DNA of 64,000 nucleotides from Ligustrum vulgare. Taxonomy: Eukaryota; Streptophyta; Magnoliopsida; Lamiales; Oleaceae. Shown one piece after another: positions 5,576 to 63,498 of the stretch (positions are counted from its first letter, which is position 1; every line of letters begins with the position of its first letter). The notes below the pieces were generated by a model. The model was not told where the DNA came from, did no database searches, and saw only the letters and a list, made by a program, of their open reading frames with translations. Location: assembly GCA_963555705.1 (NCBI GenBank), contig OY743171.1:18351352-18415351 (forward strand), read 5' to 3'. Made by a program: the position numbers and the translations under genes.

Positions 5576-5860
5576 TTTATATAATTATGTCATCTATCTA
5601 ATTCACTTAAGCTAATTTTGCATTCCTTTTTCTACTAAACAATTACTTCAAGATCGTCATAATAAAAGGTAGATGACCACGTTTAGCCTTTTCAAGGACA
5701 TCAACAAGAAACTTATGGATTGATGTTTGAAGGTCTGGCTCTAGAATCTGATAAGTTTGAAACCATTCTAGAGTCCGTCTTTATAGATGAAGCAGTAGGT
5801 TAAATGTAATTTTTTTTAAAAAAGATTTTTAGCCTTGTGTTCTTTTTTTTTTTTTTTATA

Positions 5861-34344: not shown

Positions 34345-34349
34345 TCTAT
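34345..34349 (+). repeat. Target-site duplication TCTAT (left)
   Basis: Identical to 46717-46721 on the far side of the Athila element. Confidence 0.95.
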
Positions 34350-35772
34350 TGATGCGTGTCATTATACACCAAAATAATAAATAAATATCTTACTCGCAAA
34401 TTATCAGATTTAATTGTAATAGCGGAAGTAAGAATCGATCCCACAAGAAACGGGAACTAATTTAGTGCCGTGTCAATCAGAATAGATGGGGGGTTTTTGA
34501 GTTCAAATATTGCAATTAACTTGAAAATAAAAGGAAAACATAAATTAGATAGAATATAACTCAAGAATTGACAAATCCTAGTTCTCGGGTTCAGTTGTAT
34601 TTTATCACAATGTTATCACCTTCCAAGTAACGCGAGTTCAATTTCCTCTTTGATTTATCACCCGTAAATAGTTAATAAGCTTTAACTATTCATATTCTCC
34701 CTTTATTGCATTTAATTAGAATAAGCTCTCTAATCAAACATTAGCCATTGAATAACCTAAAACAAGCTCTTTAGATTTAAGACAACAAATATATAATGGT
34801 TGAGAAGAATTAGGGTGAATTAGATTATCAATCACACAAGCTCGTGACAATTAACCTAGGTTGGAATTCTTTATGAAAATATTAAATTTCCACTTGCTAC
34901 CACGATTTGAACAAAAAGACAATTACGGATCCAATCATTCAAAATAGCAAATCTCAGTACAACAAATTAAATGATAAGGCCTTAATCAAATGAATCAAAT
35001 GCATTGATTGAATTAAAAACGCATAAGAATCCAACAAATCAAAGTAAAGAATTTAGAACTACGTTACTAGTTTGGAAAAGTGATAAATAAAGGAATTAAA
35101 ATACAACGTCCCCTTTGAACTAGGTAGAGAACTTAGCCGCTTAAAGCCATGAAGAGTTCTGGAATTTTCTTTCTTGATTCACCTTCTCGAATTGCTTAAT
35201 TCTTCTTCCAATTCTTCAAGCAAACCGCTCCTCTTTCAACAATTATTTCACACTTTTTTCTGTCATGAAATTCCCTTTTTATAGCCTTAATTTCGTGTCC
35301 TAGCTTTGGGCTCAAGAAATCCCAAAATTATGGAAAGATTTAAAATATGGAAATTTTTGACTAGAAAGTTACGGCCGTAACACGGTTTCTGCATATTTTC
35401 CTTAAATTGAGGTTACGGCCGTGACATATCCATTTACGGCTGTAATTGTGTTTCTGCACATTTTCACCATTGAAGGTTACAGCCGTAGAGATATGTCTTA
35501 CGGCCGTAAACCCCTTTCTGCTGATTTTTTCTTTATTCAACAATCACTCTTACGGCCGTAACCCTTTTGCATTGCGGCCGTAAATATATTGCACCCAAGG
35601 TCCTCAAACTTCAATTTTACGTGCATTTTGGTCTTTTTTCCTTCTTTTCTTTTCCTTTATGATCCTATACCACATAAAATATAAGATGCATTAATAATAC
35701 TTAGATAGACTCACATTATTGCTAATTCAAGGATATAAGTGCATAAAATAAACATTAATATAGCACTTATCA
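34350..35772 (-). repeat. Athila 3' LTR
   Basis: 1423 bp. It has several TTACGGCCGTAA-like palindromes at 35370-35585. It lacks one 21-bp unit of that block present in the other LTR. Confidence 0.97.
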
Positions 35773-35785
35773 AACCCCCCCACAC
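35773..35785 (-). promoter_or_regulatory. Polypurine tract of the Athila element
   Basis: On the minus strand GTGTGGGGGGGTT abuts the 3' LTR; this is the expected plus-strand primer. Confidence 0.85.
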
Positions 35786-37731
35786 TTGAACCATTGTTCG
35801 TCCTCGAACAAAGATAGACAGAGAAAAGAATAGGACCCAAATAACAGATTACAATATTGAGACTTGAGGTTGCAACCCACTTTTCTTTAACAAAAATGTT
35901 CCATTGCACAACCGGATTGTGTTAGTGTGTGCTAAAGATGCAACGCCCTCTATTTCTCATCCCAATCATGACTCGTTATGGCTTATTCCCTTTCACCTCT
36001 CGTGTTCACTCGCATCCCAACCATTTATGAGTGACTACGAGGAAAATAGTTTCGCCCAACTCTAGAGGAAATCGGTCGCGTAAACCGAGTTGTTCATGAT
36101 GTGAATTCAGTCAACACAGTATCCCCGACCACATTCATAGAACAAACCCTAGACCAAACAATTCAAGCCACTCATAAGTATATGTAATGGGTTTTAACAC
36201 CCTCACAAGATATTTCTCTCTTCATACAAAGTGTATAAGGGTTTGAATTTTCGCTCAGGTCTCTGCATGGATAAGTCAGTACCACAGATTGCCTAACTGT
36301 CATAACCGGAGCCAACAATAACACAAGTGCAAAGCGAAGGTCTTTATTTGGTTGTAACGGGGCTTCAGGTCAGGCAGGGAGAAAGGATATATTTAGGCTG
36401 AGTCGAGAAGGAATTTCGCAAACCAAGTCAATTCACAATGACATTACTTCCTTCACCCCTTAATATGAACTTCATTGTTTCCCGCTACCCAACTTTGTTC
36501 ACACTTGAATCTCTTCTTTTCTTTTCTTTTCTTTTTTTTTTCGAGTACAGACTGCAATTTTTTTTTTTTAAGCAGTCACCAATTGGCACAAGATAGAATT
36601 ACATTTCCATGAATTCAGTCCATTACTCACCCGTCACCCAACACAAGATAACCATTTCAACTTCTTAGACTTAGACCACAGCACAATCCTCAATCCACAA
36701 AAGCTTGCGAATCCCTTCTCTATGGGTTCAAAACGGAGACAATGCGAAAGAAAGGGTATTCGTGGCTTGTAGCGTGGCATAAAAAAATTCAAAGAAAGGC
36801 TAAGGCTCAAAAGGGCTTCGGTTCATGTAGCAAGGTAGGCTCTTTTAGCAAGTCAAATTGGGCTTAACCTATTGCTTTCGCTATAATTTGCACTTAAGTT
36901 AAGAAGCTACACAGCTTGCACAGGAAAGCACATCCAAGCATAACCCAACCATGCAGGACACACATCAAAGAATTACGAGCTCACGAGTATTAAAAACAGT
37001 TCTTAGGCTCGAAAGCTCACAAATTATGGTTTTCATGTGTTTTCCCATCCAATTATGAGTTATAGGTCATTGGTTGATCTTCATTCCGTCTCTAAATCCA
37101 TTGGTCGATGATAGTGGTTAAAAGTATTCAAACCATGACTATTCACAAAAGTATAATAATTTCCGTTGGAATTGGGACGCTCGGGGTTATATATGAAAGG
37201 ATAATGTGTCTATTTCTATTTGGGTTGGCTAGGTTTGTAGACATTTGACAATTTAACCTATCAGCTTTTTTCTGGACGGAATCATCTCTATGTGCTCAAT
37301 TTATATCCAATTATGCAATGATTTTTCAAAAAAAAAAAAAAAAAAAAGAACCAAAAGTGGGCTGCATCCTATCAAAGTATAGTTTACGCCCTAAGTGGCA
37401 TAGATAGGGGATAAAAGTGGAGAACAAAACTAACAAAGATGTCATGACTCAAAATAAATTTTAACGATTCGATTACAGAAAGAAAATAAAAAAAAAACAA
37501 TAAGCTAGTAATCAATTCAATTCCCCCCACACCTAGACAACACAATGTCCTCATTGAAAAGCAAAACAATAAAAAGGGGAAAAAGAAAAGAAACTCCCTC
37601 GGTCTAATGTGGTGGTTGATCGTCACGGGGTCTCTGCAACTGTCGAATCTCCTCTCGAAGGGATCTCTGCTCCTCCAACATAAGTTGTTGATCTTCTTGC
37701 ATGGCATTCAGCTGGGTTTGGAAGGCTTGCA
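35786..37731 (-). other. Athila internal non-coding region
   Basis: About 1.9 kb between the 3' ORF and the polypurine tract, without a supported gene. It contains poly-A/T runs (36528-36570, 37327-37347). Non-coding spacers here are normal for Athila elements. Confidence 0.6.
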
Positions 37732-38685
37732 TCATTTCCAGCATCTGCAGTTCAAAAGGAGTAGGATTAGGGGGCTGTTGTGGCGCTTCCCGTGCTGCGG
37801 GCTCCTGGCGCCTCGATCGTCATCGGATTCCCCTGAATCATCGTCCCCGCGACCCCGCTTCGCGATGATCTTCCTGCGAGCATTTTCCAAACTCGCCTTC
37901 GTGAGGCAATTCCCATGCCCCAAAGTGTCGTCACTCACTGCAGCGGGAACTCGTTGAGCCCGGCATAAGGCGGTAATCAAACATGGGAAAGGCATGCCTC
38001 GCTTCTGTGGCATCAAGCTGGCGTAGGTGGATATCGTATCATAGATGTGCTGTCCCAAGTCAAATTTGATTCCCTTGGTGATGGCATAGTAGACTCGGAG
38101 GTAGCGAATAGACACCGTATTGAGGCTACTGGATGGGAATAGACTCCCCGACCCCCACTGATGCAGGTACCAGGCATCCCTCTGTAGATCCCGATTCTTG
38201 TAGTGCGGATGAATGACATTCAGGGAGTCATGGAGTTTAGGTTTCAAAGCCCAACGGAGCACCTCCTGGTCCGGGAAGAAAACACCTGAATTGGATGACA
38301 TAGGAACGGCGCCAGTGCTATTTAACCCCAAATAGTTTTCCACCACTTCCTTATCAAACTTGATTCTTTTCCCTGCTATCCTGGTGTGGTGATAATCAAG
38401 GGATCCCTCGTCACCAATTTCTTTGTTGAATTGGGTGTAGAATTTGAATACTAACGGGGGATTCCCAAAAGGGAGAGCACTCGCGAATTTCACCCAACCG
38501 AACTCTACGAAGCAGGCCCAAAACTATCGAGGAGCAATGACTATGTCAGCGCTCCGTCATTCTTGAAAATCATCCGGGAGGAAGAGCCGTTCCTTAATGC
38601 ACAACTTAGATTGACTCTTCTCCTGGCGGGGCTCAGATGAGGATTCCTCCGCCACTTGCTTCCCTTTCTTTGTCGGTGGAGCCAT
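37732..38685 (-). pseudogene. Athila 3' ORF (putative plant transposon protein)
   Basis: Starts at M-A-P-P-T-K-K (38685), a basic and serine-rich start usual for this ORF. The main domain covers about 38493-37840, with N-Y-L-G-L, W-A-L-K-P, W-Y-L-H-Q-W-G and the S-I-R-Y-L-R-V-Y-Y-A-I region. Two in-frame stops, TGA at 38559-38557 and TAG at 38526-38524, separate the N-terminus from the domain. The ORF lies downstream of pol, where Athila elements carry an env-like or accessory gene; its function is not known. Confidence 0.7.
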
Positions 38686-39519
38686 GAAAATCCTGTAGAT
38701 AAAGGAATGAATTAGTCGAGCGGGAGAATAATTTAAAAGAAAATGTGCGCAAGTAAGTAGTGCGTGATGGTTAAATAATGGCATAAGCTCAAGGTTTCGA
38801 ACATGTTTTCTTAGATGGCACAATTCAAATGCAAGGGGAGTGCGAGGTCCGTCAAATCCATGTGACAATTCCCATTATGAGAAACCAAAACAAAGAAGTA
38901 GAGTCACAACCTAGGCTAATGTGGAGTCAAAAATTGGAGCCGAGAACCTAATTAACCATTAAGATATATATAGAGCAATGAGGAATTTGCATTTGACCCT
39001 ATGAATGCATCAAGTTCAAACTCCAATCTTTCCCTTCAAATGAACTCCTATCATGACATCAAGACACTTATACTAGCAAAATAGGGAGATTGGAGTCGAA
39101 GTTTTAAGGAAACAAACACCCCATAGTCTCCTAGACATTTTATCGAACACGTGGAGTGCGACTAGGTAACGATGCCATGGTAGGGAAATAAATAAAATCC
39201 AAGTGCCCCAAATCACAAACACATAATCATCAATGCATATTCAATCATTAGAAAGGAAATTTCGAGAACCCAATGTAAAATGAAACAAAACTCACGCCAA
39301 AAAGAGGAAAGGGGGAGGAAAGGCAAACCGTTCAAACCCGGTGGAGAGGACTTGGCATGATGGATGATTGCAATGAGACTTCCTAGTGAACGAAAATATG
39401 GTGTGGATTGGAAGAATATGCGTGAGAGAGTTGTGGGTGAATGGCGGAGAAGAAAGGAAGAGTGAGCGATTATGCGTGAAGGTAGCCGTTTAAAAGTTTG
39501 AAATAGGGCAGACTTACGA

Positions 39520-39660
39520 CCGTAAGTAACATTCTGAAAAAAAATTCAAAGATACAATTACGGCCGTAAAAATGTAATCACGGCCGTAATAAGGCCTCTG
39601 GATAAAAACGCTGGGATTGAGTTACGGCCGTAAAAGGTCAACTTACGGCCGTAACAAGGC
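39520..39660. repeat. TTACGGCCGTAA palindromes in the internal region
   Basis: Five copies or near copies of the 12-bp palindrome occur in about 140 bp. The same palindrome is clustered in both LTRs. Confidence 0.85.
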
Positions 39661-39833
39661 CACTGATTTTTTTTTTTTTTAATAGGTGAATGAAATGACG
39701 AGACAAACTAAAATTAACCAAAAATGAAAATACGAAAATAAAGAGTCGAGGAGATAAAGAAACTCCCCTCTCGGGTTGCCTCCCGAGCAGCGCCGCTGTT
39801 TACTATCGTTGGCTCGACTAAGTCCGTGCGGGA

Positions 39834-41130
39834 CTACTGCCCTTTGTTGGTGTTTTCCAGTGCAATCACCTCCAAGTTTTCAGTTTGGAATCCCTCATAA
39901 TACGGCTTGAGACTGTGCCCATTGACCTTGAACTGTTTATCCGTACGCAAGCTCCTAATGTCGACTGCACCATGGGGAGATACATTAGTAACAACAAAAG
40001 GACCTACCCAACGAGAGCGAAGCTTACTTGGGTGCAGTTTGAGCCGGGATTGAAACAGTAGCACCTTCTGGCCCTCACAGAAACTCTTCCGAGATATGCG
40101 TTGATCATGGAATGCTTTAGTTCGATCTTTATAGATCATTGCATTCTCGTAAGCCTCATTCCGTATTTCATCCAATTCCTACAATTGAAGCTTCCTATGG
40201 TCTCCTACTGCTCCCCAATCCATATTACATTGCTTGATGGCCCAATAAGCTTTATGCTCGAGTTCCACCGGTAGGTGGCATGGCTTTCCAAATACCAATC
40301 GGTATGGAGACATACCAATTGGCGTCTTGTAAGCGGTTCGGTAGGCCCATAAAGCATCATCGAGTGGAATGCTCCAATCCTTCCGGTCTGGTCAAATTGT
40401 TTTTTCTAGAATGGACTTCACTTTCCTATTGGAGATTTCTGCCTGCCCGCTAGTTTAGGGGTGGTATGCGGTGGAAACCCGGTGCATCACTCCATATTTT
40501 TTTAACAAGGCTTCGATGGTTCGGTTGCAAAAGTGTGTTCCTCTGTCATTGATCATTGCTCGGGGTATTCCAAACCTACTAAAAATGTTAGCTTTTACAA
40601 AATCTGCAACAACCTTAGCGTCATTAGTACGGGTAGCCTTTGCCTCTACCCATTTCGAAACATAATCAACAGCGAGAAGAATATAATTACAACCAAACGA
40701 CGGGGGAAAGGGTCCCATGAAATCGATGCCCCAAATGTCAAAAATCTCACATACAATAATGGGGTTTTGAGGCATTTGATCTCGTTGGGATAAGTTACCT
40801 GTTCTTTGGCAATTATCGCAAGACTTACAAAAAATGTAAGCATCCTTGAAAAGGGTCGGCCAAAAGAACCCGCTTTCCAATACTTTTTGTGCTGTCCTTC
40901 TAGGTCTAAAATGGCCACCACATGCGTATGAATGGCAAAAGGTAAGGATTGATTGGTGTTCTGATTCCGGCACGCACCTTCTGATGATTTGATCGGGGCA
41001 CCTTTTCCACAGGTACGGGTCATCCCAAATGTAATATTTAGCATCACTTCTCATCTTATGCTTTTGTGCATGCGAAAAACCAGTAGGAATTAGTTTAGAA
41101 GTTATGTAATTTACCAAGTCAGCATACTTG
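39834..41130 (-). pseudogene. Athila integrase, broken
   Basis: Continues from the gag-pol frame after a one-base frameshift in the C-run near 41132. An HHCC zinc region (H-S-Y-A-C-G-G-H ... C-K-S-C-D-N-C) is followed by the first two catalytic aspartates (G-I-D-F-M-G-P and I-N-D-R-G-T). Stops follow: TAA at 40457-40455, TGA near 40391 and TAG near 40178. The C-terminal part, with W-V-G-P-F-V-V, is readable to 39834. Confidence 0.88.
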
Positions 41131-44100
41131 GGGGATTTGCTTTGATAGCAAATAAACCCTCATCTGGGAAGGTTTCACGCAGAGGTAGGTCGTCTTCGGG
41201 CTTCACTACTCGGCTAAGATGGTCGGCAACTACATTTTCGGACCCCGCCTTATCCTTGATCTCCAAGTCAAATTCTTGTAGTAAAAGTATCCAGCGGATG
41301 ATTCTTGGTTTTACATCTTTTTTTACAAACAAGTGTTGTAATGCTGCATGATCTGTAAAAATAATCACTTTAGAACCCAATAAATAAGGACGAAATTTTT
41401 CTAAAGCAAATACCACAGATAGAAGTTCCTTTTCAGTGGTAGTATAGTTGGCTTGGGCCTGATTTAGGGTTCGGGAGGCACAGTAAATCACATGGGCCGC
41501 TCTCCCAACCCGTTGCCCTAGGACTGCTCCCACTGCATAGTCACTGGCATCACACATTATTTCGAATGGAAGATCCCAGTTTGGTGGTTGAATGATCGAG
41601 GGTGTAGTCAGTCGCTCCTTTAGTTGGTCAAAGGCCTTCTTGCACAGCTCGGTGAATTTAAATGGGACATCATTTTGCAACAAATTGCACAGTGGTGATG
41701 CAATTTTGGAATAGTCCTTGATGAACCTGCGATAGAAACCTGCATGCCCAAGAAAAGATCGTATATCCCGCACATTGGCAGGGTAAGGTAATGCAGATAT
41801 GAGGTCCACCTTAGCCTTATCAACTTCTATTCTCTTTTCCGACACTACATGACCTAACACAATTCCCTTATCTACCATAAAATGACATTTTTCCCAATTT
41901 AGGACTAAGTTAGTGTCAATGCATCGTTTCAAAATTAATGATAAATTATCCAAGCACACATCAAAAGAATCACCCCACACACTAAAATCATCCATGAATA
42001 CCTCTATAATTTGTCCTATGTATTCAGAAAAAATGCTCATCATACAACGTTGGAATATTGCGGGAGCATTACACAAGCCGAAGGGCATGCGTCTATATGC
42101 AAACGTGCCAAATGGACAAGTAAACGTGGTTTTCTCTTGATCTTCTGGAGTTATGGAAATTTGAAAATATCCTAAGAAACCATCTAAAAAACAATAATGG
42201 GAATGACCAACTAATTTTTCTAACATTTGATCCATGAAGGGAAGGGGAAAATGATCCTTTCGAGTGTCAGCGTTTACCTTCCTGTAGTCGATGCATACCC
42301 GATATCCAGTTTGGACCCTAGTTGGTACAAGTTCACCATCTTTGTTTTCTACCACCGTTACTCCGGATTTCTTTGGCACCACTTGGACTGGACTGATCCA
42401 CTTGTTGTCTGAGATTGGGTAAATCATCCCTACTCCTAGCAGCTTCAAAATTTCTTTCTTCACCACGTCCATCATTGCTGGATTTAGCCTCCGCTGGGCT
42501 TGTCTCGATGATTGAGCTCCTTCCTCAAGCAATATTCGACGCATGCAGATTGACGAGCTGATTCCCTTGATATCCGCGATGGCCCAACCAATCGCCTCCT
42601 TGTGCTCCCGAAGGACCCGAACCAGTTTGTCTTCTTCTAGCTTGGTGAGGTTGGATGAAACAATTACGGAAAGTGATTCTTCATCACCAAGAAATTCATA
42701 TTTCAGATGGTCGGGTAGAGATTTCATTTCCACCACTGGGGCTTGCAAAATAGAGGGTAGCAATTTGTTAGGATAGTCTGTCAGTTGAATTGTTTTTACG
42801 GCATACCTGCGTGGTGCGGGTCCCAGTGCAGTAATTCCATCCTGTAATTCCTTGCTTATACCCACGTCGCTGTCATCATCTTGCCTTAGCGACTCCACGA
42901 TAGCTGTTTCTAGCTCGTCCCTGCAATTTAACTTGAAAACTTTCTGCACTGCAGGAGTAATGTCATTAATAGAATAAGCAGCACACACATCATTTGGGTG
43001 TTTCATTGCATCGTAGATATTAAATTGCACTACCTCCCCATTGAATTCCATGGTCAACACCCCTTTTCTTACATCAATTATGGTTTGGGAGGTCCAAAAT
43101 AATGGTCTTCCTAACAATATATGGGTAGAATTAGGGGAGTGATCATCATTCATATCTAGTATGTAAAAGTCTGCCGGAAACACCAACCCCCCTACTTGCA
43201 CTAAAACGTCCTCAACTACCCCGTCTGGATATGCATTGGAACGGTCGGCTAGTTGGATGATAACATCTGTTTTAGTCATTTTTGTAAGATTTAATGCAAT
43301 GTAAGTGGATCTAGGCATTACTTTAATGGATGCTCCTAAGTCTATTAGTGCATGTTTTACCTTGGTGTTACCTATTCGACATGGCACAGTGAACATACAG
43401 GGATCCTTACCTTTTGGAGGCAATTTCCTTTGAAATAAGGCTGAAACGCTTTCCCCCATTCTTACCTTCTCGTTTCCCACCAGTTTCCGTTTGCTAGTGC
43501 ATAAATCCTTTAGAAATTTTGCATACCGGGGGACTTGCTTGATGGCCTCCAATAGTGGGATATTGGTTTCAACCTTTCTAAACATTTCCAACATCTCATT
43601 TTCCTTGCTCTCCTTGTTTGTCTTTGCTAATCTGCTAGGAAAAGGTGGAGTTGTTAACTTAACATTTAAATGGGAGTCAGTTTTTACCTGAAGGTTTTGC
43701 GAAGTGTCGTTTCTCTTCCCGACTCCTTCCTTTTCATCTTCCTCCATTTCAGGTGCAACCGGTTCCAATTGCTGACCCTCAACTTCCGTTCCACTCCGGA
43801 GAATTATGGCGCTCACATTTTTGGGATTCACCTCAGGCTGCGATGGTAGCTTCCCTCCAGATTGTGCCTCCAATCTATTTATGGCAGTGGCCATTTGGCT
43901 CATTTGATTTTCCAGGTTTTGAATGCTTGACTTGGTATCCTGTTGGAATTGCATCGTGTTAGTTGCCAACATCTTAACCATATCTTCAAGAGACATACCT
44001 GAATTTTGAGGTTTTTGTTGATATTGCCCCTGTGGTTGGAAAGTCCCTTGCTGCTGGAATTGTCCTTGTGGCTTGTTTGGGATAAAACCTGGGGGTTTGT

Positions 44101-45103
44101 TATTTCCGTAACTCAGGTTGGGGTGATCTCTCCACCCGGGGTTGTACGTGTTTGAATATGGCATGTATTGTTGCCTTTGGAAAGGGAAGCCTCCAGCAGT
44201 ATTTACCTGTTCATTGTTTTCTTCTTGCAATACCGGACACGTGTCCGTTGGATGTCCAAAGTTCGAACAGATTCCACAGGCTTTGGCTTGTTTATAATTC
44301 CCTACAACAAGTTGCTTAACGAGATTCGTCAGTTCATATAATTGACCTTCAATATTGGAACTACTTACCTCGTTTACTCGGCGGACTTGGGAATCCCTAC
44401 TCGAGTTGAATTGTTGAGTGTTTTCTGGTGTCTTGTCCATTAGCGCACCTCCGCTTGCGGCGTCTATCATACTTATGTCCATTGGTGCCAGACCTTCGTA
44501 GAAATACTGCACCAAGAGTTGCTCACTAATCTGATGATGGGGGCAGCTGGAGATGAGCTTTTTGAAATGCTCACAATACTCATATAATGTTTCATTGTTG
44601 TTTTGGCGCACCCCACATATCTCTTTTCTGATGGTACCAGCTCTCGATGCAGGGAAGTATTTTTCCAAGAAGAGCCTTTTCATGTCGTTCCAAGTAGTAA
44701 CTGTTCCCGACGGTAAACAATAGAGCCAGTCGGTGGCGGCATCCTTCAATGAGAATGGGAAGGCTCTCATTTTTATTTGTTCCTCGGTAATGCCCGTGGG
44801 CCTCATACTGTCGTAAACCACATGAAACTCTTTTAGGTGCCTATATGGATCTTCGTCGGGGTTCCCTCGAAAAGTTGGTAATAAGTGGATGAGCCCAGAT
44901 TTAAGCTCGAAAGTTTTTCCTTCCTCCACTGTTGGAAACGTAATGCACAAGGGCTGCTGAGCTACATCGGGGGTAGCCAGTTGTTTAAGAGTCCTGTTGT
45001 TAGCTGCCATTTGTCGTGCTGCTCTCCTTTGCTGTCGAAAAGTCCTCTCAATTTCTGGGTCAAGATCAAAAATTTCACAATTAGTTGACCGAGTTTTAAG
45101 CAT
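41111..45103 (-). CDS. Athila gag-protease-RT-RNase H polyprotein
   Basis: A single open frame of 1330 codons from M-L-K-T-R-S (45103). In order: gag capsid region with [10 protein letters not shown] and A-A-T-D-W-L-Y; a zinc knuckle [14 protein letters not shown]; an aspartic protease with A-L-I-D-L-G-A-S (D-L-G is usual in Athila); RT with V-C-I-D-Y-R-K-V-N and F-M-D-D; RNase H with M-C-D-A-S-D. The frame runs into a stop at 41111 because of a frameshift before integrase. The frame also extends upstream to 45367 into the LTR, but that part is not gag-like. Confidence 0.95.
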
Positions 45104-45249
45104 ATAAGCAAAGAAGTACAAATAATTATTATATGAATTTTTTATTTTTTTTTGAAAAATTATATAAATAAAGTGAAAATAAAATAAAGGTAAAATAAAT
45201 GCAGAAAAATAAAATTCTAATTGATTAAACACTAAATTGGTTAACCGTT

Positions 45250-45266
45250 CCCCGGCAATGGTGCCA
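45250..45266 (-). promoter_or_regulatory. tRNA-Asp-type primer-binding site
   Basis: TGGCACCATTGCCGGGG on the minus strand, six bases inside the 5' LTR. It matches the 3' end of plant tRNA-Asp except for two changes (TGGCGCCGTTGCCGGGG). Confidence 0.85.
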
Positions 45267-45272
45267 AAAATT

Positions 45273-46716
45273 TGATGCGTGCCGTTATGTACCAAAATAA
45301 TAAATAAATATCTTACTCGCAAATTATCAGATTTAATTGTAATAGCGGAAGTAAGAGTCGATCCCACAAGAAACGGGAACTAATTTAGTGCTGTGTCAAT
45401 CAGAATAGATGGGGGGTTTTTGAGTTCAAATATTGCAATTAACTTGAAAATAAAAGGAAAACGTAAATTAGATAGAATATAACTCAAGAATTGACAAATC
45501 CTAGTTCTCAGGTTCAGTTGTATTTTATCACAATGTTATCACCTTCCAAGTAACGCGAGTTCAATTTCCTCTTTGATTTATCACCCGTAAATAGTTAATA
45601 AGCTTTAACTATTCATATTCTCCCTTTATTGCATTTAATTAGAATAAGCTCTCTAATCAAACATTAGCCATTGAATAACCTAAAACAAGCTCTTTAGATT
45701 TAAGACAACAAATATATAATGGTTGAGAAGAATTAGGGTGAATTAGATTATCAATCACACAAGCTCGTGACAATTAACCTAGGTTGGAATTCTTTATGAA
45801 AATATTAAATTTCCACTTGCTACCACGATTTGAACAAAAAGACAATTACGGATCCAATCATTCAAAATAGCAAATCTCAGTACAACAAATTAAATGATAA
45901 GGCCTTAATCAAATGAATCAAATGCATTGATTGAATTAAAAACGCATAAGAATCCAACAAATCAAAGTAAAGAATGTAGAACTACGTTACTAGTTTGGAA
46001 AAGTGATAAATAAAGGAATTAAAATACAACGTCCCCTTTGAACTAGGTAGAGAACTTAGCCGCTTAAAGCAATGAAGAATTCTGGAATTTTCTTTCTTGA
46101 TTCACCTTCTCGAATTGCTTAATTCTTCTTCTAATTCTTCAAGCAAGCCGCTCCTCTTTCAACAATTATTTCACACTTTTTTCTGTCATGAAATTCCCTT
46201 TTTATAGCTTTAATTTTGTGCCCTAGCTTTGGGCTCAAGAAATCCCAAAATTATGGAAAGATTTAAAATATGGAAATTTTTGACTGGAAAGTTACGGCCG
46301 TGAGTTTTCCTTTACGGCCGTAACACGATTTTTGCATATTTTCCTTAAATTGAGGTTACGGCCGTGACATGTCCATTTACGGCCGTAATTGTGTTTCTGC
46401 CCATTTTTCACCACTGAAGGTTACGGCCATAAAGATATGTCTTACGGCCATAAACCCTTTTCTGGTGATTTTTTCTTGATTCAACAATCACTCTTACGGC
46501 CGTAACCCTTTTGCATTGCGGTCGTAAATATATTGCACCCAAGGTCCTCAAACTTCAATTTTACGTGCATTTTGGTCCTTTTTCCTTCTTTTCTTTTCCT
46601 TTATGATCATATACCACATAAAATATAAGATGCATTAATAATACTTAGATAGAATCACATTATTCCTAATTCAAGGATATAAGTGCATAAAATAAACATT
46701 AATAAAGCACTTATCA
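45273..46716 (-). repeat. Athila 5' LTR
   Basis: 1444 bp, TG...CA ends. Carries the palindrome cluster at about 46290-46530. Confidence 0.97.
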
Positions 46717-50756: not shown

Positions 50757-52715
50757 ATGAATAATCAAATAAGTTTTTCATTAGCTATTTATATTCAAGT
50801 TACTATTGTTGAAACAAATATAACAACCTTTGCATTAATAGGCACAAGAAATGATATAACAATATTTAAAAATTTCTTAATAAAATCATGGAATACTGAT
50901 TGGAAAATAAAAATAACAGGAGTTACAGGATAAATTACTCAAATAATTAATAGTGCTGATAAAATCGATATAATACTAGGAAGTAACAAATAGTTGTGAA
51001 CAAAATATATAGTTATAATAAATTAGAATGTGATATATTACTAGGAAGTGACTTTTATACAACAATTTCAATATTATAAACAAAATAATTACATGATAAT
51101 GTTACAAATACCTTGTGGACATTTACTAAAAATACCAAGAGAATTTAGACCTTACAGAATTCAGCCAACACAGTGTGGTGATAAATGGGAGAAAAAATCA
51201 ATTACACAAAATGAAATAAAAAATAAAAGAATAGTGTATAAAAAGTCTTGAAAACAAATATACAAACAAGTATGGAAAAAATCCTTGACCAATTAGAAAA
51301 ATTTGTGGAGAGAATCCATTATCGTTTTAGAAATCACATCATCCAAAAGCTAAAATAGAACTAACAGAAAATATTATTATAAGAGTTAGGCCAATGATGT
51401 ATACCATACAAGATACACAAGAATTCAAGACTCAAATAAAAGAATTGCTTAACCAGAAATTGATCAGGCCTAGTGATGGACCCCATAGTAGTTAAGCTTT
51501 CATGGTAATGAAACATTCCGAACAAAAAAGAGGAAAATCTAGAATGGTAATAAATTATAAAGAATTAAATAAATATACTAAATTTGATAGATACTTTTTA
51601 CCAAATAAAGAGGTACTAATAAATCTTGTAAAAAGAAAACAATATTATTCTAAATTTGATTTTAAATCAGGATTTTGGCAAGTAAAAATGGAAGAAGATA
51701 GTATTTAATATACAACATTTAGTACACTCCAAGGTAAGTATGAATGGATGGTTATGTCATTTGGTTTAAAAAATGCACCACAAATATATCAAAGAAAAAT
51801 GGATAACATATGTAGAAGATTTAACGAATTTTTAATTGTCTATGTTGATGATATATTAATATGTTCTAATATAGAGAAGAACAAAGAAACCATTTAATAA
51901 AATTTATAAATGAATGCAAAAAGAAAGGAATTGTTCTTTAAAAAAATAAAGCTATAATAGAAAAACAAGAAATTGATTTTCTTAGATTAGCAATAGATAA
52001 AAGAGGAATAAAATTACAAACCCATATATCTAAAAAGATAGAAAGTTTTTCAGATAAATTAGAATCTAAAAAATAAATACAAAATTTTTTAGGATGTTTA
52101 AATTATGTAGAATGATTTATTGAGAATCTTTCAAAACAGAGATATAAAATTTAGATTTTACTTAGAAAAACAAATACCAAAGGATTGAGTAATGAGCACA
52201 CAGAAATTGTCAAATCACTTAAGAAAGAATGTAAAAATTTACCAAAATTAAAATTACCAAATGAAAAAGATAATCTAATAGTTAATACTGATGCCTCAGA
52301 TAAATATTGGGCAATATTAAAAACAGATCTTAATGAAATCTGCAGATATTCCAGTGGAACATTTAATCAAGCAGAACTAAATTATACTACTCATGAGAAA
52401 GAACTGTTAGCAATTATCAGAGGAATAAAAAAGTTTTCATTATTTTTATTATCCAAAAAATTCATTGTTGAAACTGATAATCCTCAAGTTGCAGGCTTAG
52501 TAAAAAATAAGTTGCCACCAGAGCCTCAATATAGAAGGCCCCATAGATGGCAAGCCTATTTGACATTTTATAATTTTGATATCGTCCATATTAAAGGTGT
52601 CAATTATTATCTTGCAGATTTTTTAAGCAGGAATATTGAATTTGCAAATGGATATTATCAAAAAATCCTTGATAGGGGCCAAATAGCGAATGAACTTCCT
52701 CGAAGAGGAAGCTGA
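50757..52715 (+). pseudogene. Caulimovirid protease-RT-RNase H gene, broken
   Basis: ATG at 50757 follows the preceding TAA without a gap, in the same frame. A retropepsin-like segment comes first, with A-L-I-G-T-R-N-D-I where an active protease has D-T-G (50841-50849), then I-T-G-V-T-G. RT is readable in pieces from about 51370, with M-V-I-N-Y-K-E-L-N, S-F-G-L-K-N-A-P and an intact Y-V-D-D (51841-51852). RNase H (52185-52715) keeps its acidic residues (N-T-D-A-S, H-E-K-E-L, V-E-T-D-N, L-A-D-F-L-S). Many stops and frameshifts lie between 50930 and 52180. Confidence 0.88.
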
Positions 52716-54697: not shown

Positions 54698-55054
54698 ATG
54701 AAAAAACCTAGATCTAAGAGAGGTCCATATAAAGTTAAAAAGAATATCAAAAGTAAAAAAAGTATTGAATATGAGAATGAAATTGAAAAAATAGGATATC
54801 AAGAGCAACTCTACGCATCACAAGAGATATTAAAAAGTTTTAAAGAAAGTTTAATAGAAAACTTTGCTAGAGGTACTGTAAGATCTATAATAATACATGA
54901 TATTCAAGATATAATTGATAAATTAGAAAAGAGAAAGAAAAGTATTTCGAAATATAATATACCATTTGAACCAAACATAGATATTATGGCTGACGTAGAT
55001 ATTATCAACTCTCAGGCACTGATAGAGTTTGAAAAATTATTTGAAACTTTATAA
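54698..55054 (+). CDS. Small viral ORF with basic N-terminus
   Basis: An intact frame of 118 codons starting M-K-K-P-R-S-K-R-G-P-Y, which resembles a nuclear-localisation or RNA-binding stretch. The rest is acidic and helical. It overlaps the next frame slightly. No family recognised. Confidence 0.45.
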   Translation: MKKPRSKRGPYKVKKNIKSKKSIEYENEIEKIGYQEQLYASQEILKSFKESLIENFARGTVRSIIIHDIQDIIDKLEKRKKSISKYNIPFEPNIDIMADVDIINSQALIEFEKLFETL

Positions 55055-55076
55055 ATTATTTATCTTTGTGTTTATA

Positions 55077-55517
55077 ATGTCTGGATATACAATTGAAGGA
55101 TTAGACAATTTGTTAGATAGGATAATGGAAAAAATAGATAACATTATATCTCAATTAATAGATATAGATGAATCATCTGAACAATATTATATACTTTTAG
55201 AAAACCACAATCAATATATTATAGATTATTCTGATATATTACAACTTAAAATAGATTTAGAAAATAAAATAGTAACAAACACAGTCCAAACCTAAATACC
55301 AAGATATACAATAGAAGGACTAGATAATCTTTTAGAAAAATTAAAAGATAAAATGGAAGATATTAAATATCAAATGGAAAATGAAAACATATCTTTTGCA
55401 AAATATAATAAACTTTTAGAAAAATACGAACAATATATTGCAGATTATTGTATTTTACTAGATCAAAGAATGAATTTATTCCAGAAAATTTTGTATAATA
55501 ATTTATCAACTCAATAA
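55077..55517 (+). pseudogene. Viral ORF with two tandem related domains
   Basis: Two similar halves of about 73 codons lie in one frame, each opening with Y-T-I-E-G-L-D-N-L-L and containing a Q-Y-I-(I/A)-D-Y motif. A TAA (55293-55295) separates them. Both halves look helical and coiled-coil-like. The internal duplication is within a viral gene; its function is unknown. Confidence 0.5.
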
Positions 55518-55520
55518 TCT

Positions 55521-55904
55521 ATGAATACTTCACAAACATCAACATCTAATAACTGTGATCATAAACTATATTTAAATGATAAAGAAATTTCATTTTTATT
55601 AGTTATTGTTGAAAAATCTAAAAATATACAGTCTGTTAGACAATCTAAACTAAAAGAAATATACGAAGATATTGATTATGCTATCTTAAATAGAATATAA
55701 TTTAATTCTGTTGAAACATCAAATAATATAAATACAGTTCATAAAATTATAGAAGAATACGAAGATATAGAAGAAGAAGTTTCAGGAGGAATAACATTAG
55801 GATATATAATTAACAAAAATCATCTCAAATTTTTTGAAAAATTATCACAATATAGAACATTTTTAGAAGAACTTAAAAGATTAAAAAGTATTGAATTAAA
55901 TTAA
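55521..55904 (+). pseudogene. Last viral small ORF
   Basis: 127 codons with one internal TAA (55698-55700). Acidic, with I-I-E-E-Y-E-D-I-E-E-E. It ends the viral sequence on the right. No family recognised. Confidence 0.4.
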
Positions 55905-55905
55905 T

Positions 55906-56702
55906 CAAATTAAATTTATAGACATAACTTGCAAAGTTAATAATCAACTTCATTAAGGATAATTTAGACAATTTGCAAAAGATGGAATTACATGATTTGT
56001 ATGGATAAAACCATAAAATCCCCCAATTTATTGTAACCTAGTAGCCAGCAGTAGCGTGACTGCGTGAGTAGCGTTTGAGAGTGAAGAAGTTCTGAAGAAC
56101 CGTAAAGTCCGTGGATCCGTCACCGTGCGTCAGGCGTGATTTGTGAACGACAACAGGTTCGATTCTTGACATTCGACGACCCCGCAAATGCAATAGAAAT
56201 CTTCTTTCATGTTCGATTTTGTGGTTTATTCTAGTTCGATTTTTGGGTTTTTTATTCACTTACATATTTGTAATTTTATTGAAATTGTTTTGTAACTTCA
56301 TCAGTCAGCAATGGAATTTGGGTTCTAAAGCAGCAAATTGTTTTGTAATTTCACGTTAATGGAACATAACTAACTAATTGCTGATCAAACATTTTTCACG
56401 AAAAAAACTACAAACTGAGATATTAACTAGGCAAAAAAGGAAAAAATAGATTTAATGGATTAATGAAAATCTTTTTTTGTAACTTCAGTCTTCTGTTAAC
56501 GTTAATGTAATTTTTGTAACTTCAGTCTTCTGTTAACTTAGATTTTGTGGTTCACGTATATATGCTTTGTGGTATATAGTTGGACAAATCATTTGAAAAC
56601 TTGATATATTTGAAAGCGTAAATATCTTTGTAGCAGGGATGCATCTATGCCATTGCATTATTAACGTTCCTTAATTATCTATGTTAGGGAGCTATTATAG
56701 TC
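55906..56702 (+). promoter_or_regulatory. 5' flank of the IRE1-like gene
   Basis: GC content rises at 56040-56200, as expected for a 5' UTR or promoter-proximal region. A direct repeat of 'gtaacttcagtcttctgttaa' type occurs twice near 56478 and 56515. No TATA box or start site is assigned, and an upstream non-coding exon is possible. Confidence 0.4.
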
Positions 56703-59700
56703 ATGTCTCTTCGCAAATTTCAACATCAGTTTCCAGTTGTCAAGAATCTGACTGTGGGCCAAGAGAAACCCCGAAAAGAACCTCTTGGAGCTGGAGAGGA
56801 CGAGAATAAAACTAGAGACAAAATGCATGAAGTTGGAAAGGATGTTTCAAACAACGAGAATAAAGGAGATGTAACTGATCCCTCTGGAGCTGGAGAGGAT
56901 GAGAAGAAAATTAGAGACAAAATAGATGAAGTTGGAAAGGATGTTTCAAACAATGAGAATAAGGGAGATGTAACCGATCCCTTTGGAGCTGGAGAGGATG
57001 AGAAGAAAACTAGAGAGAAAATACATGAAGCTGGAGAGGATATTTCAAACAACGAGAATAAGGGAGACATAACTGATAGCAATGTATACAATGAAATATT
57101 GTTTTCTTGTCTGAATTTTTTCCATGAAAACAAATTAACAAGAACTCTTCACACGTAAGTTCTTTACTATTCTATTTCAAATATAATTTTCTTGCATAAT
57201 CATTAGTTAATTGCATTTTAACTACTCTTTACTAATCAAATTAAGATTTGTTTTATAATAGTTATTATATATATTTCTTTGTTTAATTTGTCAATTAATG
57301 ATTTAATGCTTTGTGATAATTTAGATTGGAACAAGAAGCTCATATCTTCTTCAATCAGAACCACGTTGATGACATGATAAAGGAAGGAAAATGGGACGAG
57401 TCATTATGTTACTTGTCTGCATTTTCAGGGATTGATGATGATAGTTGGGTGGAAATCCTCCATCAAGTTGCACTCCAGAAGTTCAAAGAGTTTGTTCTCA
57501 TCGCATTGAATTAATATCAATTTAGTACTAATATATTAATATGGATTGTTCCTCATGAATTTCAATTCGCAACTGCAGGAGTCACGAGTTAATACGAAAA
57601 CCTAATGATATCAGTGCAAACTGTGATCCCTTAAAATTTGATGACGCCAGGTCAGAGAATAATTGATTAATTTGCGATTATTATTATTATTATTAATTAT
57701 GGGAATAATGCTTATTTGATAAATGATAGTAGGGGTATGTTGCGTGCTAAAATTAAGAAGATGGTGGAGAAAAGCGAAAAATTTCGTGATAAGATGAAAT
57801 TCCCGAAGATAAAAAGATTATACGAACTTTTTAGTGAGAAGAGGTTGATTTCTTCGCAATATGTAATTTCAGCATTTTCTTTGAGTTTAAGATAAATCGC
57901 AATTTTCATTTGCCCTATTAATTTTTCCCCAGCGCTGGTAATGAAGATCCAACCATAGTATTGTCACCAATACAGTAAGTTTTGCTACTTATTATCCATT
58001 TTACCCCATGTTTTATTTAATAACTAGTTAATAATACGTGTATTATAGGTGGTTGTATAACAATTGTAACGACCCATAATTTTTCCTTTTGAATTTTTAA
58101 ATACGTGTCGTAAAATAATATTTTATAAAAGATATTTGTCCTTGCGTTTACAAAAGATTAATAAATACTTAATAACAAGCACTAATTCGTTATTTTGAAA
58201 TTCACAGTCATATTCTTTTGATTATACCACTAGAAACTCGTTGCAAAACTCCAACTCATCGAACCTCAATTAACTGAAAAGGGGAATATCATAGACAATG
58301 AGATAAAATCTCAACAAGTGAGCCACATAAGTAATAATTCATATTTAGACCTCGGCAATCATGAAGTACATAAAGGAGACGAGAATTCAAAGCCGAACTC
58401 AAGTGGCCATAATTCTCGTGAAAACATAAGGTCATAATGTACGTAAGGATACACGAGAATTATAAATCGAACTTGGGTGAACATAATTCTCTTGCGTAGC
58501 GCTACCGAACTCCAATCCACTTATATCATATTCATAACTTGAATTCCATAATTCAAAAATTGAAAGTACAATTCGTATGACTAAACTTACCTTGATAATT
58601 AGGAGAGAATCCTAGTAAATACGTATATGAGAATTTAACTTCTTCAACAAAGTGATAATTTGTGTGTATTATGATAACCTATTTATATTAATAGATGTAT
58701 ATACATGGTGAGTTGGGAACAAATTAAAAATGAAAATCTTCTTAATTGTCATTGCCGTATGAAAATTACTTAATTTTAAGTTACCCACTTGAAATTCCCA
58801 TCATTTTCCCCTATTTGTTGGTTGCCACCTGCCAACCCTTAGACGCCAAGTGATGGGTGGGATAACGGCTGGTTGGTTAAATTAGTGGGCAACTTAAATT
58901 TCCACATTATAACAATGAAGATTTTTTTTTTTTTTAATTAAATAAAAATAGTTTAAGCGAAATTCGATTTTACCCTTAAATTAAAATGATGGGAAGAAAC
59001 ATGCAGTAGTCAGAAGCACAAATTTTCTTATTCGAGTATGTTCCTTGAACCTTTTATAAATATATAGTTTAAATTAAAAGTATTGATTAATTTTTTAAAT
59101 CTAAATATCGTTGACAAATGTGGGTTTTTAAGAATATTTGAAATTTAATTGTTAGGTATCCCCCTCAAAGTGAGCATGTTATAGACAACTCTCAAGACGT
59201 TATTGACAATGACATTCATGAAGTGGTTAACAAGTTTACGATTTTCAAGAAAGAACTTGGTTTTGGATACTCAACTATTGTCCGTGAAGGACGTTTTGAT
59301 GGTCGTCCAGTGGCAATCAAATGTCTTCTCATTCATTTTAGTGAGCTTGTGACAACAGAGGTTGAATGTCTTATTAAGTCTGACTCACATCAAAATATAG
59401 TTCAGTATTATGGAAAAGATTCAGATCATAATTTTCACTACCTTGCCCTGGAGAAGTGTTCCTTTTCTTTATATGATTTGATCACGAATAAAGTAACCTT
59501 TGAAAATGATGAGGAGTACACGCTGTGGAATAAAGAATATCCATCTCCATGCCTTTTAAGCATAATGAGGTTTGTATTTTAGCTGTCATATTAGTGCATT
59601 TTTTTTTTTATTTGTATGCGACTTAAGAAATTAATCAATTACAGGCAAATAGTCAGTGGACTACAACATTTGCGCTCTCTTGGTATTGTACATCGTGATT

Positions 59701-60742
59701 TGAAGCCTACAAATATAATGATAAAGAAAGAGAAATCATTATGTGCAAAACTATCTGATATGGGCATTTGTAAGCAAATACCAAGAGGCTTATCAAGTGT
59801 GGAAAACAACTTCAGTGGTGAGTACACTAATGTTGTGTTGTAGTTGTGTTAAGTCTAGTCCTATAATAGAGGAAATTAGTCTAATTGAACATTATTAAGA
59901 TTTAGGAACTTAAGAAATGTTAATGTTGCATTCTATTGTCTTCTATGCAGGTAGGGGGACATTAGGTTGGCAAGCACCTGAATTGTCTACCATCGATGGT
60001 GTAAGGCGAAATGTAGATTTGTTTAGTCTGGGTTGTGTTTTCTTCTTTTGCCTTGCTAGGGGTGCATGCCTCTTTAATGTTGGTGATGAAATTGAACACA
60101 CGACTATGGGACTTGGGGAAAGATTTTTCATGATAAGTCACATGCCAGCAGCTGTTGATCTTATCGAACGGCTCATAAGTTCCATGCCAGATCATAGGTA
60201 ACACCTATTGCTATCTTGTCTTGCTTGTTATATTTTTTTTTCTTTCTTTCTTTCCTTTTTATTTTTATTTTTTTATTGTGCCCGTTGTGTTATTTTATAG
60301 ACCGAAGATTGAGGAGGTTATTAAGCATCCTATGTTGTGGGATGCTACCACTCGACTTGCATTCATTCGAGATGCAAGTGATCGGATCGAACAAGCGGGT
60401 TCGGGATCTACACTAGAGACGAGAATAGAAGCTTCAAGAAAAACTATTTTTCGGAATGGATGGGATTTAATGATGGACAAGAACTTAATAGTTGAGATCA
60501 GCAAGAGGAGGCCGTTTAATTACAGGAGTGTGTCTCACTTGGTGAGAGCTTTGAGGAACACTTCGGTCCACTATAATGAACTGCCAAATGATGTGAAGGA
60601 AAACTTTGGAAGTAACTATCCTGAAGGATTGGATAACTACTTCACTGAAAAATTTCCACATCTTCTTTTTGAAGTTTATAAAGTCATCTGCGAGTTTTGT
60701 GCAGGAGAAGAAGTCTTTGAGATGTATATATATGAATCGTGA
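56703..60742 (+). CDS. IRE1-like kinase/KEN ribonuclease with TOPLESS-like N-terminus
   Basis: Proposed exons: 56703-57154, 57325-57489, 57579-57650, 57733-57843, 57933-57974, 59156-59569, 59645-59817, 59951-60197, 60301-60742. The spliced frame is 705 residues and all phases agree; most donors are canonical, but exon 4 uses the weaker AG|GTTGAT. Residues 29-124: three 33-residue repeats. About 127-262: LisH/CTLH-like, with L-E-Q-E-A-H-I-F-F-N, W-D-E-S-L-C-Y-L-S-A-F and F-R-D-K-M-K-F-P, as in the N-terminal domain of TOPLESS. About 308-575: kinase with K336 in V-A-I-K, H-R-D-L-K at 435-439 and D-M-G at 457. About 576-705: KEN domain with R644, N645 and H649. No signal peptide or membrane segment. 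IRE1 normally splices bZIP mRNA at the ER; this protein should be soluble. Intact, so probably functional. Confidence 0.85.
56787..57080 (+). repeat. Three 99-bp coding repeats
   Basis: Units at 56787-56885, 56886-56984 and 56985-57080 encode G-A-G-E-D-E-x-K ... S-N-N-E-N-K-G-D, acidic and probably disordered. In-frame length. Confidence 0.95.
58065..58907. mobile_element. 843-bp insertion in intron 5, 9-bp direct repeats
   Basis: TATAACAAT occurs immediately on both sides (58056-58064 and 58908-58916). The insert starts TGTAACGACCC and ends TTTCCACAT; on the minus strand it ends GGGTCGTTACA, as LTRs do, but the other end does not give a matching TG with a 5-bp duplication. A 9-bp duplication is the MULE size, yet no inverted ends are seen. 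It could be a solo LTR with altered ends or a non-TIR MULE. It accounts for most of the long intron. Confidence 0.6.
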
Positions 60743-60969
60743 CGAACAACAACATTATTGGACACTCCCATTTTTTTTTAGAACTCTTAGTCGAGATGGT
60801 GGCAACATTGAGATGTTATATAACTTTTGGTAATGCCTTCGTCGAATTAAAAATCGTGATGAACAACAACATTATTGGACACTCCCATTTTTTTTTTAGA
60901 ACTCTTAGTCGAGATGGTGGCAACATTGAGATGTTATATAACTTTTTGTAATGCCTTCGTCGAATTTTA
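60736..60969 (+). repeat. 117-bp tandem duplication at the gene's 3' end
   Basis: Two nearly identical units start at 60736 and 60853. The first spans the stop codon of the IRE1-like gene, so the second looks like 3' UTR. A poly-T run follows at about 60971-60995. Confidence 0.9.
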
Positions 60970-60995
60970 ATTATTTTTTTTTTTTTTTTTTTTTG

Positions 60996-63498
60996 CGCCT
61001 TATAATGGACCATTTGATATAAATTTACAATAATATGGTTATTCATGATAGATTAGTTTGTTAAAATTCCAACCTTAAGAATTGTTGTTATGTTTCATTT
61101 CCAAAATATTATTTCCATCCCATCCTATAATTATTCATTTACTAAGATTTTAATGTTTTCAAAATTGAAATGTTGTCTATACAGCTATTAGGTGAGAGTT
61201 AAATGTTTTCGAAGAATTAATACTCCTCTTCATGGCTCATCAAATCAATTGTCGAATAAGTGGATGGTTGCTGTTAGTTAATGAAATAGTGTTTCTACGG
61301 GTTCGGTGGTGAGTTCAACTGTTCTAAAAGTATGGAAAGAAATTTTGAGGTTTCTCATAGTGTCATTGACCTCAATTCATTGGAGAAAAGCTGAAATGGA
61401 AATGTTCAAAATATTATGGGTCACTTTAATTAGTTGTTTGTTGTGTGCAGAAATGAAATTTTGAAAACTGTGAAGATTTTTAAATAATATTTTCATCCAG
61501 ATATTTTCTTATATTACAGTATATTCGTGCTTCCGTGTTTAGGCAATCGCTCTTGCTCTTTTGTTTGGTCTCCTTGGATTTTGTTCTTTCCTCCTCCTAG
61601 AAGAAATAGGTTACTATTTCAATGATTGAGGCAAAATTTGCAGCTTTGTTGCTATAATGCCCCCAAGTCGCATATTATTCAAATTAAGATAGAGAAGAAT
61701 CGACTTGGGGGATTTATTTAATGCAAATTTTAGAAGACATTTAAAGACTTTTTTAATGGAGTTAATTGGATTTTTATTGACTTTCAAGGACTTGTATAGA
61801 TTTTCAAAGGCTTCATTTCATAAACTTTCATAGACTTTAAAAAAAAAAATTTACGAACTTTTATTTTTTCCATTAAAAACTTAAATATTAATAGATTAAT
61901 TTTCCAATGACATAAATATTAATTGTCAATAATAATTATATGTCATGTGAATAAAAGAAATGCGGCTCGAGGGATAAATAGTTCGAGGACCGAGAAACAT
62001 ATGTTACTAAAAAGTGGGGAAAAATAAAATTCGCGCCCGATACCGATTAAAAAATTTGTACTATATTCATAATTGCACTACATTACTAGTGAAAGTCTCA
62101 TACTTCGTACGATAATCGTCTTACAGTCTTACAGTCGAGTTTATTAGCGTCATTCCAATATAATTTTCAAATATCCAATAAGTTTACCTAGACATATTCA
62201 TGACTATCGTAGAAATTTAGAGCTTCAATCATATACCCCTAAAAGTGCAAAGAATAGCAAGAACACAATAAACATTTTTCATAGTTCACGACGATAGAGA
62301 AATAACACGCAAATGTAAAAGTGCGAAGACCTTATAACATTTTTATTTTTGGAATGGAAGACCATAAATCATTATTTGAGAAGTGTCTTGATAGTAGACT
62401 TCACGATGAGCTTGTTCAAATTAGTGTAAGACTGTCGACATCCAACAAACATGACAGGTGATCCCGATATGTATGCCATTGAGAATGCAGCTTCCAACTA
62501 CACCACCATCAACCCATATCGTGATAGAGATTCCAAAATATAAGTGAAATGATGTTGAAATCATAAAGTACTCAGATAAGACTGTCTTGGTCGACTAAGC
62601 AAAGAAATTTAGCTTATAAATATAAACATCCAACGAACATGACACGTGATCACGATATGTATACCATTGAGAATGCAGCTTCCAACTACACCACCATCAA
62701 CCCATATCGTGATAGAGATTCCAAAAATAGTTTAGCTTATAAATATAAATAGTTTTTAACTTGTAAATAAAGAGATCCCTATGCAGCTACTACTTTAACA
62801 AGGAAAGGAAAATAAATGACGAAGGACCATACCTTATCATCAATAGTTCTCATAATATGAATTTAGTAGGAGATCAAGAATCTTCTCCTTTATTTGGATG
62901 TGAGAGATGAAATTTACTTCTAGAACATGGATGACAACCAGTTGAATGATCTACGTGCCTTATGATTAGGTTTTGGGGGCGAGGCAACAGTAGATAGAAA
63001 AACAATGAATATACAACAAAACAGTCTTAGAAAATGATTTTGGCTAAGCTTAAAAGTTCAATAATTGGTGAATAAGTTTGATTTGAATACATAATTTAAA
63101 ATAGTTTGATTTATTAGTGAAAGGTGAAACAAGTGGTAATATATCCAAACATGTTATTCTGAAAATTAACTTCTAGTTTTCCTATGCTTAAACCAATATC
63201 CAATGTCTTCTAACATGAATAAGAAACATGAATGAAAATATACTCTGCTTTCTCTAACATATGGTGGGTAGTGGTCCAAGAACCCGCTCCATCATTGCAA
63301 GGTGCTCCAGATTCTCGTGTTTGGAACAATACTTTTCTCTGGCATCATGGCAGACAACAAATGTGAATTAAGAGCCAAAAGTTAGGCACTCAAAGAAAGG
63401 CAAGTCTCAGTCCAGATTTATGAATTGAGTCAAATGACAGGTGCGAATATGAAAAGGAATAATTGGATACTTAAAGCAATTGTTTGCTTCATAAGAAC

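Follow-up and report, generated by a model that had tools for sequence, protein, structure and literature searches.

We analysed a 64,000-nucleotide stretch of the Ligustrum vulgare genome (the window; C4:18351352-18415351 of an assembly of 1.385 Gb in 51 contigs), in which a gene at window positions 56703-60742 of the forward strand places a TOPLESS (TPL)-type head ahead of the kinase and KEN ribonuclease (RNase) domains of IRE1. This gene is referred to as copy A. Splicing of the window DNA gave nine in-phase exons encoding 705 codons and a stop, as the preliminary description of the locus had proposed, and all eight borders were GT-AG, including the junctions 57154/57325, 57843/57933 and 57974/59156. 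At the exon 7/8 border, 59817/59951 is the GT-AG choice, and 59818/59952 would encode an identical protein.

Exon 1 (56703-57154) carries the start codon, three charged repeats of 33 residues and the first part of the LisH; a repeat scan placed the corresponding in-frame tandem repeat of three 99-bp units (GAGEDE.KTRDK...NNENKGD) at 56786-57082. The end of the LisH and part of the CTLH lie in exon 2 (57325-57489), the counterpart of TPL exon 2, while exon 4 (57733-57843) corresponds to TPL helix 8 and the linker. The motifs LEQEAHIFFN (exon 2) and FRDKMKFP (exon 4), both named in the preliminary description, were present in the spliced protein. A 42-nt linker exon (exon 5, 57933-57974) is followed by intron 5 (57975-59155; 1181 bp), the site of the join, whose repeat content varies between gene copies. 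Downstream, exon 6 (59156-59569) encodes a linker and the kinase N-lobe, exon 7 (59645-59817) the catalytic loop (HRDLKPTN) and DMG, exon 8 (59951-60197) the kinase C-lobe (GWQAPE), and exon 9 (60301-60742) the KEN ribonuclease domain.

In the protein, the charged repeats (residues 28-126) are followed by the TOPLESS-type LisH/CTLH part (127 to about 265) and a short linker. Pfam identified Pkinase at residues 312-570 (E 4.6e-35) and Ribonuc_2-5A at 577-701 (E 1.9e-31). A phmmer search against solved structures matched residues 127-258 to TPL (5nqs, E 4.8e-18) and the C-terminal part to yeast Ire1 (3fbv, E 1.7e-72), in agreement with the claimed order of a TOPLESS N-terminal piece ahead of IRE1 kinase and KEN. 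Neither WD40 propellers nor ankyrin repeats were among the 10 families that the Pfam scan of the protein returned up to E 1. The first residues are not hydrophobic. The highest hydrophobic peak, at residues 500-518, was considered as a transmembrane span and rejected, as it falls within the kinase C-lobe.

The kinase-KEN half was compared with the IRE1 genes of the same assembly, where KEN matches occurred in at least five places (six rows): on C10, on C11, in copy A and at two more places on C4. Canonical IRE1 genes lie at C10:46.19 Mb and C11:60.73 Mb. Each has about 330-370 residues with a hydrophobic span upstream of the kinase in the same exon, a part taken by its position to be lumenal and transmembrane; Pfam named only the kinase on these large exons. 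With the large exons as the only queries from those genes, no counterpart to the part ahead of the kinase was found in window 55000-62000, nor any remnant of it in intron 5, which agrees with the earlier proposal that LisH/CTLH takes the place of the lumenal sensor and membrane segment of IRE1. In the kinase-KEN half, all three introns lie at the same places as in the C10 gene. Identity to the two canonical proteins is 42-44%, and divergence of the kinase half at synonymous (dS) and nonsynonymous (dN) sites (dS 0.89 and dN 0.49 vs C10; dS 1.70 and dN 0.56 vs C11) places it nearer to the C10 gene. The catalytic K, HRD, DMG and APE of the kinase and the R, N and H of KEN are retained. For yeast Ire1, catalysis is proposed to rest on the pair H1061 and Y1043, and R1056 and N1057 hold the phosphate, according to the part of the source available to us (PMC3149027). 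In the 3fbv alignment, these positions correspond to H649, F631, R644 and N645, respectively.

By its structure, the locus is one gene in which a TPL-type head is joined to kinase-KEN. A chance or misassembled gene model was ruled out by homology to both parents and by copies B and C, described below. We also considered two adjacent genes wrongly joined, namely a short one of TPL type that stops behind exon 5 and an independent one of IRE1 type. Translation that runs on beyond the donor of exon 5 meets a stop codon directly, which would allow a short protein, and intron 5 is long. Such a protein would, however, leave the kinase without a start: the first in-frame Met of exon 6 is exon residue 137, and no Met occurs in this frame until the kinase N-lobe has ended, so that translation of the kinase depends on an exon further upstream. 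Moreover, the donor of exon 5 matches the acceptor of exon 6 in phase, both sites are retained in B and C, and the order of TPL exons, kinase and KEN is the same in A, B and C. We consider two misjoined genes very unlikely. Within intron 5, a single neat element with a target-site duplication was proposed and dropped; the same stretch in copy C resembles several nested repeats, and we therefore claim only that the repeat content varies.

The origin of the TPL-like half was assessed with a typical TPL gene of the same genome (L036), which served as the reference for exon and intron places and residue numbering, and with two TPL-like loci on C18 (L047, 43.49 Mb; L048, 43.53 Mb). L036 has four phase 2 introns here: one immediately precedes LEQE, and the others follow KYLEALDR, exon 3 and LINQ. 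Introns 1, 2 and 4 of the fusion are in phase 2 at TPL-like places (3 of 4), intron 3 is extra, and exon 2 ends about four codons short of the TPL donor. Similarity to the C18 loci extends into introns. Two stretches that begin late in intron 1 and cross into exon 2 were 78% (55 columns) and 79% (70 columns) identical. The 5' part of intron 4 (57844-57932) matched intron 4 of the C18 loci (77% over 69 columns with L048), and a stretch of 192 columns reaching from exon 4 to intron 4 was 68% identical to L047. The intron-reaching matches (introns 1 and 4; 77-79% over 55-70 columns) had E values of 7e-6 to 1e-9, and the typical gene L036 showed no such similarity beyond a few bases. The C18 loci were also the best protein-level match for exons 1 and 4, narrowly so for exon 4. 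Over the whole of exon 2, the best identity to TPL was 39%. L047 and L048 are themselves diverged TPL-like genes; in L048, TPL exon 3 is barely recognisable and WD40-like frames, judged by eye, lie downstream. The two loci perhaps represent a corepressor branch that is losing its tetramer interface.

No clear counterpart of TPL exon 3 (helices 6-7) was found in the fusion gene. Exons 3 (57579-57650) and 4 of the fusion are together read as TPL exon 4, divided by an 82-bp intron, exon 3 being its 5' part and sharing the junction GCCAG/GGGT with L047; exon 3 may alternatively be a shortened TPL exon 3, an earlier reading that we have since replaced. TPL positions 102, 116, 117 and 122 all lie in TPL exon 3 (L036 numbering; L036 residue 122 is Asp). 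At the positions aligned to TPL 67, 71 and 74, where R67, K71 and F74 presumably contact EAR motifs, the fusion carries S, E and H. TPL F15 aligns with F139 of the fusion (5nqs alignment), where copy B has Tyr. The sections available of one source report that the TPL LisH is sufficient to dimerise, with F15 among the paired residues, and that a second interface involves K102, T116, Q117 and E122 in helices 6-7 (PMC8203292). The preliminary description had seen an oligomerising or partner-binding module here. A LisH dimer is plausible from the F15 alignment; TPL-like EAR binding is unlikely, since exon 3 with its four tetramer positions has no clear counterpart, and a TPL-type tetramer is unsupported on the same ground.

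This bears on a reading built on that description, in which a possibly nuclear RNase would oligomerise, bind EAR motifs and be recruited by repressors. The fusion retains a CTLH part and, partly, helix 8, which partial accounts give as a Mediator contact (PMC8203292) and an element of the EAR pocket (PMC13251949). The stretch equivalent to TPL residues 25-91, whose loss abolishes EAR-protein binding in the portion of the source that we saw (PMC7446885), is also present. On the other side stand the lack of a clear counterpart of TPL exon 3 with its four tetramer positions, the replaced residues at the presumed EAR contacts, and the presence of just four short basic clusters in the protein. We regard EAR-guided recruitment as very improbable.

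The N-half exons were found at six places on C4: copy A in the window, B at 17.887, C at 17.693, D at 17.910, E at 17.830 and F at 17.758 Mb. No KEN match at D, E or F was among the matches listed; B and C are the copies that were read into kinase-KEN. Their splice dinucleotides, where compared, are retained at every surviving exon end; the acceptor of exon 3 is only partly visible in B and C because one mismatch clipped the local alignment. Copy B contains an additional, inverted piece of the kinase exons, and gaps in its exons 8 and 9 break the reading frame. Copy C has lost 259 bp across the LisH, spanning the last part of exon 1 and intron 1, as well as 48 bp within exon 8 and 4 bp shortly before exon 9 ends. 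Copies E and F are 99.3-99.4% identical to C over 3.2 kb and share the exon 1 deletion; comparison of these copies shows that C, E and F, which lie 65-72 kb apart at C4:17.69-17.83 Mb, arose by recent segmental triplication of a copy that was broken beforehand. In copy D, exon 3 has lost 1 bp, and the match to exon 1 is about 6 kb distant. Among the copies seen, only A has an open frame. Just 3' of the stop codon of A, at 60771-60966, are two 78-nt copies with a spacing of 118 bp that are 99% alike, and copies B and C lack 110-120 bp in this region. The shared flank of the gene copies starts at about 56024, about where a run of open frames ends: an RT_RNaseH Pfam domain at 52155-52712 (+) is followed by AT-rich frames onward to 55904, two of which were scanned and gave no Pfam match. 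We guess that these frames may be the remains of an integrated pararetrovirus.

On this evidence, we put at about even chances the reading that copy A encodes a soluble, LisH-dimerised, IRE1-type RNase, assembled from TPL-like and IRE1 exons joined through introns, which would be young, weakened and weakly constrained. Several observations weigh against it. Among A, B and C, 45 of 60 exon differences were nonsynonymous, close to the neutral expectation of 0.767 (binomial P 0.76), as were 21 of the 25 changes separating A from B plus C (P 0.48), and a further nonsynonymous difference lies at the clipped site 57580. On the fusion branch, dN/dS was about 0.9 compared with 0.2 for C10. The glycine loop is one residue shorter than in canonical IRE1, and copy A has Phe at the catalytic Tyr of KEN, which is Tyr in B, C and both canonical genes. 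Against the similarity of the head to TPL itself, the Pfam models LisH_TPL (18.6 of 30.7 bits) and TPR1-like_2nd (19.8 of 27 bits) both fell under their curated cut-offs (E about 0.001). Exon 2 scored higher at the protein level with typical TPL genes than with the C18 loci; with the protein matches divided in this way, the C18 origin rests mainly on introns.

The substitution comparison covered the first 102 nt of exon 8 in copy B and excluded edge sites clipped by local alignment. Changes private to B or C were nonsynonymous in 19 of 30 cases (P 0.087). Of the seven A-only codons, six kept that status once copy D was included for exons 2-4; codon 179 did not. With the nonsynonymous share near the neutral expectation, the time since the copies separated shows no sign of purifying selection at the amino-acid level, and evolution over this period looks neutral. 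Over the longer fusion branch, about 487 substitutions in kinase-KEN would give about 18.7 stops if unconstrained, and copy A has none; this branch estimate is rough, with dS halved and dN taken from three points. The dN of the fusion branch was 0.40, over fourfold that of C10 (0.09).

Insertions and deletions (indels) behaved differently. None of the eight that separate A from both B and C was coding (P 0.0035), or none of six (P 0.014) after removal of two of ambiguous length, compared with 9 of the 14 private to B or C (Fisher P 0.0055). The indels were sorted by hand, one gap in B overlapping the 48-bp gap of C was omitted, and several are in homopolymer runs, a bias towards non-coding indels; the pattern is suggestive of constraint on A.

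These figures also bear on the alternative that a once-working chimera is now decaying in all copies, with A open merely because little time has elapsed. The neutral-looking substitutions fit this account, as do the damage in the five other copies (exons 8 and 9 of B, the LisH deletion of C, E and F, and the frame-breaking deletion of D) and the Phe at the catalytic Tyr of A. With about 4% of changes giving a stop, the chance that A would be stop-free after 25 recent changes without selection is 0.36. The absence of coding indels between A and B or C speaks against decay, tempered by the homopolymer bias, and so do the splice sites of copy A, which are all canonical. We regard decay in all copies as a substantial possibility, somewhat short of an even chance, and the gene is possibly decaying at present.

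For the weakly constrained RNase that we favour, the architecture is real, the joining through introns is well supported, and present function is doubtful. We infer the following mechanism. A TPL-like gene, whose introns are closest in sequence to those of the C18 loci, would have contributed its 5' exons without TPL exon 3, and these would have been joined through introns to IRE1 kinase-KEN exons. The resulting protein would be soluble, with no lumenal or transmembrane part. Its LisH would pair two chains and so unite two kinase-KEN units without a signal from the endoplasmic reticulum (ER), and pairing would activate the kinase and lead to RNA cleavage, either at a stem-loop or in the manner of regulated IRE1-dependent decay. 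The TPL-type tetramer and EAR pocket would be lost, so the protein would not be steered by EAR proteins in the TPL manner. Since Tyr is present in B, C and the canonical genes, the ancestral fusion was probably a full RNase that has been weakened in copy A; the available part of one study reports that Y1043F in yeast Ire1 is about tenfold slower, with oligomerisation unchanged (PMC3149027). A bolder version is a sensor-swapped plant IRE1: a soluble, LisH-paired kinase-RNase performing RNA decay uncoupled from the ER, amplified in a local cluster, changing fast and with its RNase tuned at the catalytic Tyr. By analogy, the fast change could be likened to that of genes in conflict or with gametophyte functions. 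We consider this version unlikely, though conceivable.

Other elements occupy the remainder of the window. At 34349-46704, direct repeats 10.9 kb apart (96-97%) flank a 1422-aa minus-strand frame; this looks like a long terminal repeat (LTR) retrotransposon, the frame resembling Ty3-type gag-pol by eye, and an Rfam snoR71 match barely over its cut-off lies within it (44529-44635). A 637-bp unit forms five tandem copies at 5859-8976 (96-100% identity), and a 578-bp unit forms three at 25460-27124 (96-97%). An inverted copy of 370 bp of the latter (97-98%) lies at 18742-19111, about 1.3 kb from a Mutator-like element (MULE) transposase frame at 20439-20945. A 398-aa open frame with Glutaredoxin and GRXCR1-2_C domains is present at 30745-31938 (-).

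Among known systems, plant IRE1 of the IRE1A/B type, here the C10 and C11 genes, shares with the fusion the kinase followed by KEN, the three introns of that part and most catalytic residues. It differs in the long region upstream of its kinase, which includes a hydrophobic span and whose place is taken in the fusion by a TPL-type head, and in the KEN Tyr, which copy A lacks. TOPLESS/TPR corepressors (5nqs) share the LisH, the CTLH part, the helix 8 region and the intron places; the fusion has neither their complete CRA with the tetramer interface nor their WD40. Missing the lumenal and transmembrane features of IRE1 as well as the CRA and WD40 of TPL, the fusion is filed with neither family. 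As the preliminary description had supposed, the combination appears to be undescribed: no fusion of TOPLESS or LisH/CTLH with IRE1/KEN was found among the papers listed from the open full-text literature, some of them judged by title, a search that lay outside subscription papers and protein databases, and annotated members in other plants may exist.

IRE1 activation is normally governed by the lumenal sensor or the membrane. A natural exchange of the sensor for a LisH, if true, would show how much of this activation is mere dimerisation. The locus would also be a case of exon shuffling that unites two unrelated signalling families, and the Tyr-to-Phe change in A but not in its sisters B and C would offer a natural test of RNase tuning. 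RNase L, also a KEN enzyme and soluble, becomes active when its N-terminal part, which is not lumenal, brings about dimerisation. The fusion is predicted to resemble it in this respect, with a LisH in place of the ankyrin repeats and 2-5A ligand of RNase L. Arabidopsis IRE1C likewise lacks the lumenal sensor and, as far as the accessible sections go, is more diversified between Arabidopsis species than IRE1A/B (PMC6788458). However, this Brassicaceae protein retains a transmembrane span and is located in the ER in the portion seen of a second source (PMC6883098), and those sections do not mention a LisH/CTLH head for it; the fusion, if soluble, would provide a natural plant IRE1 for comparison with it. 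Taken by analogy across these systems, the fusion would work most like an IRE1 whose sensor has been swapped.

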